NCBI GenBank assembly: GCA_025041195.1
Contig: JAKCFM010000001.1
Span: 930,001 to 994,000 of the forward strand
DNA from: Halobacteriales archaeon YIM A00013
GTDB lineage: Archaea > Halobacteriota > Halobacteria > Halobacteriales > Haloarculaceae
Length of the DNA stretch: 64,000 nt
Reading direction: 5' to 3'
The notes under the pieces are model-generated. The model searched no databases. It was not told where the DNA came from and saw only the letters and a list, made by a program, of their open reading frames with translations. Position 1 is the stretch's first letter. Each line of letters opens with the position of its first letter. Positions 45,952 to 47,478 of the stretch are shown piece after piece. A program made the translations under genes and the position numbers.

Positions 45952-46557
45952 TCAGGTAGCATCGAGCAACGCCTCCGTAACGGTAGCAGCGACGGTTGCC
46001 GTTTGCCCAACGAAGAAATGGTCGGCCGGGAGTCCAACAGTGTCGATCGAAAGCTCGTCGGCACGGTCGACGATCGGTTCGAAATCCGCCGTCGAGTCTC
46101 GCTCGCCGTAGACGATCGTCACAGGAGACCCAATTCGTTCGAGTGCGCGTACTGCATCGAGGTCACCAATCCCGGCCGTGGGAGCGAGCGCACACACCAC
46201 CGCGGGTGCGGTGGCGGCGCCACAGAGCAGTGCCAGCGTGCCGCCGAAGCTGAATCCGTAGATTCCAACGCGTTCGTATCGATCCTGGGCCCAATCGAGC
46301 GTTTGCTCGGTGTCAGTGAGCTCTCCGTGCCCACGGTCCCACTCGCCGTAATCGAACCGTATCGACGCCACCTCATGGTCTGTGAGCCGGTCGCAGACTG
46401 CTGTAAGCCGTCTGTCAGTACGACTCCCACCGAGTTTCGGATGTGGTGGACAGGCGATTACACACCGATCCGCCCCGGGATCGCTGAGCACGCCACGTAC
46501 GTCTCGTTTTCCTGGGATTCTAACGGGTTTTTCTGCCGGTTCGTCGCTGTTGTCCAT
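45952..46557 (-). CDS. Alpha/beta hydrolase (dienelactone-hydrolase-like)
   Basis: A 201-residue alpha/beta hydrolase. The nucleophile elbow GFSFGG (G-x-S-x-G) is followed by strands ending in an Asp (VYGERDS) and a late His (LPADHFF), a complete triad. The N-terminus CVIACPPHPKLGGSR resembles small esterases linked to lipid or dienelactone cleavage. The substrate is unknown. A TATA-like box 27 nt upstream (46581-46587) is shared with the divergent pspA gene. Confidence 0.85.
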   Translation of the reverse strand: MDNSDEPAEKPVRIPGKRDVRGVLSDPGADRCVIACPPHPKLGGSRTDRRLTAVCDRLTDHEVASIRFDYGEWDRGHGELTDTEQTLDWAQDRYERVGIYGFSFGGTLALLCGAATAPAVVCALAPTAGIGDLDAVRALERIGSPVTIVYGERDSTADFEPIVDRADELSIDTVGLPADHFFVGQTATVAATVTEALLDAT

Positions 46558-46580
46558 GGATCATGTTTATGAAGAGGTGC

Positions 46581-46587
46581 TTTAATA
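46581..46587. promoter_or_regulatory. Bidirectional TATA-like box TTTAATA between hydrolase and pspA
   Basis: Read from the pspA side it is TTTAATA and from the hydrolase side TATTAAA. Its centre is 27 nt from the A of both ATGs (46611 plus, 46557 minus), the spacing expected for two leaderless transcripts. It is the only AT-rich box at that distance in the 53-bp spacer. Confidence 0.6.
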
Positions 46588-46610
46588 GGCTGGGTCGATA
46601 TAGAGTGAAT

Positions 46611-47420
46611 ATGGGTATCCTTTCACGAACCTCGTACCTTATCCGGTCGAAAGTAAACGCCCTCCTCAATCGGGCCGAAGACCCCTCTGAAACGCTTGAT
46701 TACTCCTATGAACAGATGCGCGATGAGCTCCAAGAAGTAAAGCAAGGGATTGCGGATCTGACGACGCAGAAAAAGCGTCTTGAAATGCAAAAACGACGGC
46801 TCGAAGAGAACGTCTCAAAGCATAACGAACAGGCTCGGTCGGCAGTCGAACAGGACCGCGAGGATCTTGCACGAAAGGCACTGGAGAAGAAGAAGCAGAA
46901 AATGACACAAATCGAGGATCTGAACGCCCAGATCTCTGAACTCCAGCAGACCCAGGATAACCTGGTCGATAAGAAAGACAAGCTCCAGAACCGCATCGAG
47001 GAGTTCCGGACGAAAAAGGAATCCATGAAAGCGCGGTACGAGGCCGCAGAAGCCACTGCCCGTGTCAGTGAGGCCATGACCGGGGCAGGCGACGAGATGG
47101 GTGACGTCAATCAGGCGATCGAACGCGCAGAAAGTCGTACCGAAGACATGGAAGCCAGATCGGCAGCGCTCGATGAGCTTGAAGAAACTGGTCAGCTCGA
47201 CAATGCGCTCTCGGATAAGGATTCGCTCGATCGAGAGCTCGAACAGGTAACGACCGACAGCGAGGTGGAAGATGAACTCGATACGCTGCGCTCGGAGATG
47301 GGAAAAGCCCCCGAACCTGACGCATCTACCGAAAACGGTGCGAGCACGGACAGTACGAGCTCGAGCCCCGAGGTCGAAAACGAACTCGAAGAGCTACAGG
47401 ACGACAATGGCTCGAAGTAG
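46611..47420 (+). CDS. PspA/IM30/Vipp1 family membrane-remodelling protein
   Basis: A 269-residue coiled-coil protein of the PspA/IM30 family. The N-terminal amphipathic part reads MGILSRTSYLIRSKVNALLN. Long heptad-rich helices follow (SYEQMRDELQEVKQGIADLTTQKKR-like, LEKKKQKMTQIEDLNAQ) to about residue 190, and the C-terminal 70 residues form an acidic, disordered tail. Members bind stressed membranes as ESCRT-III-like rods. The ATG at 46611 was selected because MGILSRTSYL is the family start; the frame upstream has no RBS. Confidence 0.9.
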   Translation: MGILSRTSYLIRSKVNALLNRAEDPSETLDYSYEQMRDELQEVKQGIADLTTQKKRLEMQKRRLEENVSKHNEQARSAVEQDREDLARKALEKKKQKMTQIEDLNAQISELQQTQDNLVDKKDKLQNRIEEFRTKKESMKARYEAAEATARVSEAMTGAGDEMGDVNQAIERAESRTEDMEARSAALDELEETGQLDNALSDKDSLDRELEQVTTDSEVEDELDTLRSEMGKAPEPDASTENGASTDSTSSSPEVENELEELQDDNGSK

Positions 47421-47440: not shown

Positions 47441-47478
47441 GACGCTCAATCTGAAATAATAATATCAGATTGAGCGTC
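47441..47478. repeat. Perfect 14-bp inverted repeat, 10-base AT centre
   Basis: GACGCTCAATCTGA at 47441-47454 is mirrored by TCAGATTGAGCGTC at 47465-47478, with AATAATAATA between. It lies 20 bp after the pspA stop and 65 bp before the ligase-like gene. As RNA it could form a stable hairpin (terminator or processing site), but there is no T-run after it; as DNA it could be an operator. Confidence 0.85.

Follow-up and report, generated by a model that had tools for sequence, protein, structure and literature searches.

A nearly symmetric TATA box midway between divergent hydrolase and pspA genes of a haloarchaeon is probably shared by both directions

The window analysed here, a stretch of 64,000 nucleotides from Halobacteriales archaeon YIM A00013, contains a divergent gene pair. 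On the minus strand, an open reading frame at 45952-46557 codes for an alpha/beta hydrolase of 201 amino acids, which exceeds the Pfam cut-offs of both Peptidase_S15 and DLH and whose nearest solved chain is the alpha/beta hydrolase 3trd_A (1.5e-11). On the plus strand, pspA (46611-47420) codes for a 269-residue protein of the PspA/IM30 family (Pfam PspA_IM30, 2.4e-32) that is 99% identical to the PspA of Actinarchaeum halophilum YIM 93972. Just 3' of pspA, at 47441-47478, we observed an inverted repeat that looks by eye like a terminator, with 14 bp arms (GACGCTCAATCTGA and TCAGATTGAGCGTC) and a 10-nt AT-rich loop. As judged from the sequence, the start codons of both genes are well supported. 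The hydrolase has a single in-frame ATG, GTG or TTG within the range examined, and 92 of 93 family loci have MGILSR or MGIISR at the N-terminus of PspA. Inclusion of the in-frame ATGs upstream of pspA, at 46563 and 46569, makes the coding score drop; the in-frame GTG at 46605 leaves it practically unchanged (+0.3), and was discarded as a start by homology only.

The spacer between the two genes (46558-46610) is 53 nt long and would contain the whole core promoter of both, each gene being presumably leaderless. In its middle lies the sequence TTTAATA (46581-46587), which is nearly symmetric (TTTAATA/TATTAAA, with a TTAA dyad). The centre of this box, at 46584, is 27 nt from the first base of each start codon, that is the A at 46557 on the minus strand for the hydrolase and the A at 46611 on the plus strand for pspA. 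When the distance is taken from the dyad TT|AA, at 46583.5, it amounts to 26.5 nt for the hydrolase and 27.5 nt for pspA. Both the length of the spacer and the equal distance from the two ATGs had been pointed out in a preliminary description of this DNA, and both proved correct. The same description held that the TATA box of leaderless haloarchaeal genes lies at about -27, and the promoter profile of contig C1 of this genome agrees with it, showing purines or A at -36 to -33, TTTWW at about -29 to -26 and AT at -11/-10. The haloarchaeal promoter elements in the available part of PMC4983044 are in agreement with this profile. Both genes fit the leaderless layout, in which the start codon is preceded by TATA at about -27 and by AT at -10/-11: an AT element at 46600-46601 corresponds to positions -11/-10 of pspA, where AT peaks genome-wide, and another one at 46567-46568 (minus strand) to positions -10/-11 of the hydrolase gene, where relatives with a shared box have a matching peak.

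A 14-position BRE-TATA matrix was trained on 1175 upstream regions of contig C1, based on our own gene calls. From the central box, the matrix predicts starts at 46610/46611 in the plus direction and at 46557 in the minus direction. The scores are 3.26 bits for the plus site (46574-46587) and 2.69 bits for the minus site (46593-46580), which correspond to the 52nd and the 45th percentile and are therefore like those of average genes of the contig. The flanks at the BRE positions are weak on both sides (GAGGTG at 46574-46579 for pspA and CCAGCC at 46588-46593, minus strand, for the hydrolase). The preliminary description had called TTTAATA the only AT-rich box of the spacer; this has to be corrected, because two further AT-rich sites have higher matrix scores. 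The first, GTTTATG, lies on the plus strand at 46565-46571; its motif (46560-46573) scores 4.93 bits and places the start at 46596. It was rejected as a separate box, since it implies a 15-nt leader and is missing in three genomes of the same genus (G038, G051 and G063). The second is the minus-strand site 46619-46606 (5.04 bits; predicted start 46583), which was rejected as a separate box of the hydrolase: its score is higher than that of the central box, but it implies a 26-nt leader.

The conservation of this geometry was analysed in relatives. Among the 116 genomes of the family that were searched, the hydrolase is present in 105 and PspA in 115. The upstream sequence was read in 93 of these genomes, 23 being left out because their coordinates indicated that the pair was not adjacent, that the hydrolase was lacking or that a gene was split, and the hydrolase and pspA genes are adjacent and divergent in 71 of the 93. 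In a second set, the pair is adjacent and divergent in 41 of 80 named loci. Counting identical 100-nt upstream sequences once gave 103 distinct adjacent loci, and in all of them (103/103) the distance between the pspA ATG and the dyad of the box is 26.85 ± 0.60 nt. In the spacing counts, start codons were used as a stand-in for transcription starts. Since the choice of the hydrolase start in relatives is mechanical, the 60 loci with one possible hydrolase start (ATG or GTG) are reported apart. In 37 of them the start is 24.5-29.5 nt from the dyad of the pspA box, in 11, all with genus code g5, it is at 34.5 nt, and in the remaining 12 at 52.5-214.5 nt, with nothing between the three groups. 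When any in-frame hydrolase start was allowed, 51 of the 103 loci and 22 of the 38 genus labels had one at 24-30 nt, where the codes behind the labels are not matchable to genus names and one genus may be counted twice. Conservation in relatives had been proposed as a check, and these counts show that the 27-nt spacing recurs widely. The named taxa with one-box spacing include Actinarchaeum, Halocatena pleomorpha, Haloprofundus, Halalkalirubrum, Halobellus clavatus, Haloquadratum, Natronocalculus, Halorussus halobius, Halorussus marinus, Haladaptatus, Haloarchaeobius, Halococcus, Halomicrococcus, Halostella and Salinibaculum, in a list that is not exhaustive. By eye, the rest of the spacer in one-box loci has hardly any likeness between genera.

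In Halocatena marina, no in-frame hydrolase start was found at the right distance from the box. At this locus (L122:1361-1447), the ATG that lies 54 nt from pspA does not share the hydrolase frame and opens a frame of 11 codons, MNSSIAGRRVR*, the stop of which overlaps an in-frame hydrolase ATG (ATGA). This may be a leaderless upstream frame, with re-initiation coupled to it.

The TATA peak of the shared class arises by construction, because the distance from the start codon defined which loci are 'shared'. The peak at position -10 of the hydrolase is independent of that definition. When the shared-box loci were aligned on the hydrolase start, the fraction of AT at -11 and -10 was 0.65 and 0.80, which matches the pspA side in position (0.69 and 0.92 there), as compared to 0.56 and 0.10 at the mirrored place of loci with no adjacent hydrolase. 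Position -10 of the hydrolase is A or T in most loci of 17 of the 22 labels (P = 0.0006), and the three-position score of the hydrolase side gave P = 0.0015. The minus-direction matrix score of the shared class, compared across labels with promoters that have no adjacent hydrolase, showed no excess (P = 0.14), as measured with a matrix derived from this genome and used on relatives that differ in base composition; selection on the minus-direction BRE was thus not significant.

In 14 of 33 loci with long spacers, a possible hydrolase start has a box near its -27 position at P < 0.05, a count that is somewhat inflated because far loci often offer several candidate starts, and the other 19 of the 33 reached no P < 0.05 for a separate hydrolase box. 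Halorussus salinisoli, H. ruber, H. aquaticus and H. amylolyticus, which belong to the 14, have in their long spacer a TATA box belonging to the hydrolase, and the separate boxes of Halorussus rank among the strongest (6.5-8.5 bits). Most of the Halorussus examined have this wider gap and a hydrolase with its own TATA; H. halobius and H. marinus have one-box spacing. The g5 loci (L087, L065, L064 and others) have start codons 61 nt apart, with the hydrolase start 34.5 nt from the dyad of the pspA box. Their hydrolase -27 position falls on TTTCTTAC, by eye the reverse of the pspA BRE, and therefore two promoters would overlap there by half a box.

On these grounds, we consider it probable that TTTAATA is one TATA box serving both leaderless genes, with one initiation at a time per DNA molecule. 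TBP, which together with TFB is presumably the factor used here, would bind the nearly symmetric box, and TFB would dock on either side of the bound box and in this way set the direction. RNA polymerase would then start about 27 nt away, at the A of one ATG or the other (pspA or hydrolase), and the products would be two leaderless mRNAs with their 5' ends at these bases. The two outputs would share the occupancy of the box, and the strength of the weak flanking elements would decide their proportions. In archaeal initiation, one TATA box cannot hold two TBP/TFB complexes at once. Because both directions would need the same TBP site, only one complex could form per DNA molecule, and initiation in one direction should exclude initiation in the other on the same molecule. 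The preliminary description had proposed a near-palindromic box acting in both directions. Of this proposal, the shared use is supported by the spacing, by the hydrolase -10 element and by the separate boxes of several wider-spaced relatives. The special selection of the palindromy found no support, because TTTAA is also mostly present at pspA promoters that have no adjacent hydrolase.

Whether sharing has a consequence for the two genes is a different question from sharing itself. We see an about even chance that the two-way box is shared but has no regulatory meaning, the complexes turning over fast, neither gene being limiting, and the arrangement being just the tightest packing of leaderless genes. 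The shared state has changed often: in a quick PspA tree of 106 rows it is found in 31 rows from many lineages, with 12 changes, the direction of which (gain or loss) is not resolvable. The type of box is alike with and without an adjacent hydrolase. Moreover, PMC6640164, in the portion available to us, regards most archaeal bidirectional initiation as yielding non-functional RNA. Lack of regulation does not easily explain why 22 of 38 genus labels have retained the spacing despite the changed sequence of the spacer. A stronger interpretation, which we regard as rather unlikely, is that of a widely conserved one-box switch, in which the side of TFB docking picks PspA or the hydrolase on each molecule and selection keeps the exclusion.

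It seems to us unlikely that the box serves pspA only, the hydrolase using another site, such as 46619-46606 (which would give a leader of about 26 nt), and the equal distance being a by-product of a compact spacer. This site scores 5.04 bits, as compared to 2.69 bits for the central box read in the minus direction, and the minus-direction scores of the shared class are not raised. The pspA half of the spacer is also the better conserved one: among four distinct spacers of the genus, the box is invariant at 7 of 7 positions, the pspA half at 17 of 23 and the hydrolase half at 10 of 23. However, a box for pspA only would leave unexplained both the 37 of 60 single-start hydrolases at 24.5-29.5 nt from the pspA box and the peak at -10 of the hydrolase, and the alternative site overlaps the pspA start codon. 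Finally, a symmetry due to coincidence in this genome can practically be dismissed: when the spacer was shuffled 20,000 times, a TTTAA/TTAAA core fell at most 1 nt from the middle in 0.9% of the trials, and contig C1 has many divergent pairs (505 by our calls), but the same distances in many genera already contradict it.

Between the box and pspA, the sequence GGCTGGRTCGWTATAG at 46588-46604 is nearly invariant in the genus. Besides including the -10 element of pspA, it could be an operator.

In the literature searched, which was mostly outside subscription journals, we found no description of the hydrolase-pspA promoter. Warman et al. (2021, Nat Microbiol 6:746) reportedly described a symmetric core element in bacterial and archaeal promoters that gives two opposite starts, and the likeness with our case is that symmetry of a core element yields opposite starts, as proposed for TTTAATA. 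Bacterial symmetric promoters differ from the pspA box in that the element they use is the -10, and the usual distance between their starts is 18 bp (PMC10268837, according to the text accessible to us). The bidirectional promoters of Escherichia coli are also different, since they depend on sigma-70 instead of TBP/TFB and are not locked to start codons (PMC12825309, as far as its available text goes). A precedent is found in Pyrococcus furiosus, where a single TATA element yielded, in vitro, two starts at a distance of 49 bp (PMC6640164, same portion as above). The BRE-TATA-BRE promoters described in that portion have a near-symmetric TATA midway between opposite starts about 50 bp apart, and the model given there, with TBP symmetric and TFB setting the direction, is the scheme that we propose for the pspA box. 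Unlike the P. furiosus work, which in this portion presents an in vitro case and a discussion where antisense RNA is assumed to be non-functional, both directions of the pspA/hydrolase box would give coding leaderless mRNAs, from start codons 54 nt apart and with weak BREs. In Haloferax volcanii, a PspA homolog rises under salt stress (PMC9239133, from the part at hand). Bidirectional initiation from one archaeal TATA box is already known; what is new is the wide retention of the exact layout between coding genes. This would be a natural, conserved case where bidirectional initiation from one TATA box drives two real genes and not antisense noise. Relatives with one box and relatives with two boxes, for example within Halorussus, offer a ready comparison between shared and separate promoters of the same gene pair, and the fixed 54-nt spacing is a simple handle to find other such pairs.

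The spacing of the 505 divergent pairs called on contig C1 was analysed using gene starts assigned mechanically by our own codon-usage script. The pairs include 2 with spacing 20-46 nt, 8 with 47-57 nt, 3 with 58-68 nt and 88 with 80-110 nt, and the main group is found from 80 nt upwards, with the 8 pairs at 47-57 nt forming a small separate cluster. This distribution is compatible with one-box and two-box layouts, and a speculative generalisation is that divergent leaderless genes are allowed two spacings, of about 54 nt with one box or of at least 80 nt with two; a general one-box class on this contig is only suggestive, because the gene starts came from the codon-usage script. Among the seven pairs at 47-57 nt other than the PspA pair, whose matrix P values are 0.087 and 0.058, one alone has good matrix scores both ways, and it is the only one of the 8 with P < 0.05 in both directions. 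This pair (C1:75942-75996, corresponding to L204:15942-15996) consists of divergent genes for a TPR protein and a member of the LigT-like 2'-5' RNA ligase family, 54 nt apart, with a central TTAAGG box that scores 4.82 and 6.74 bits.
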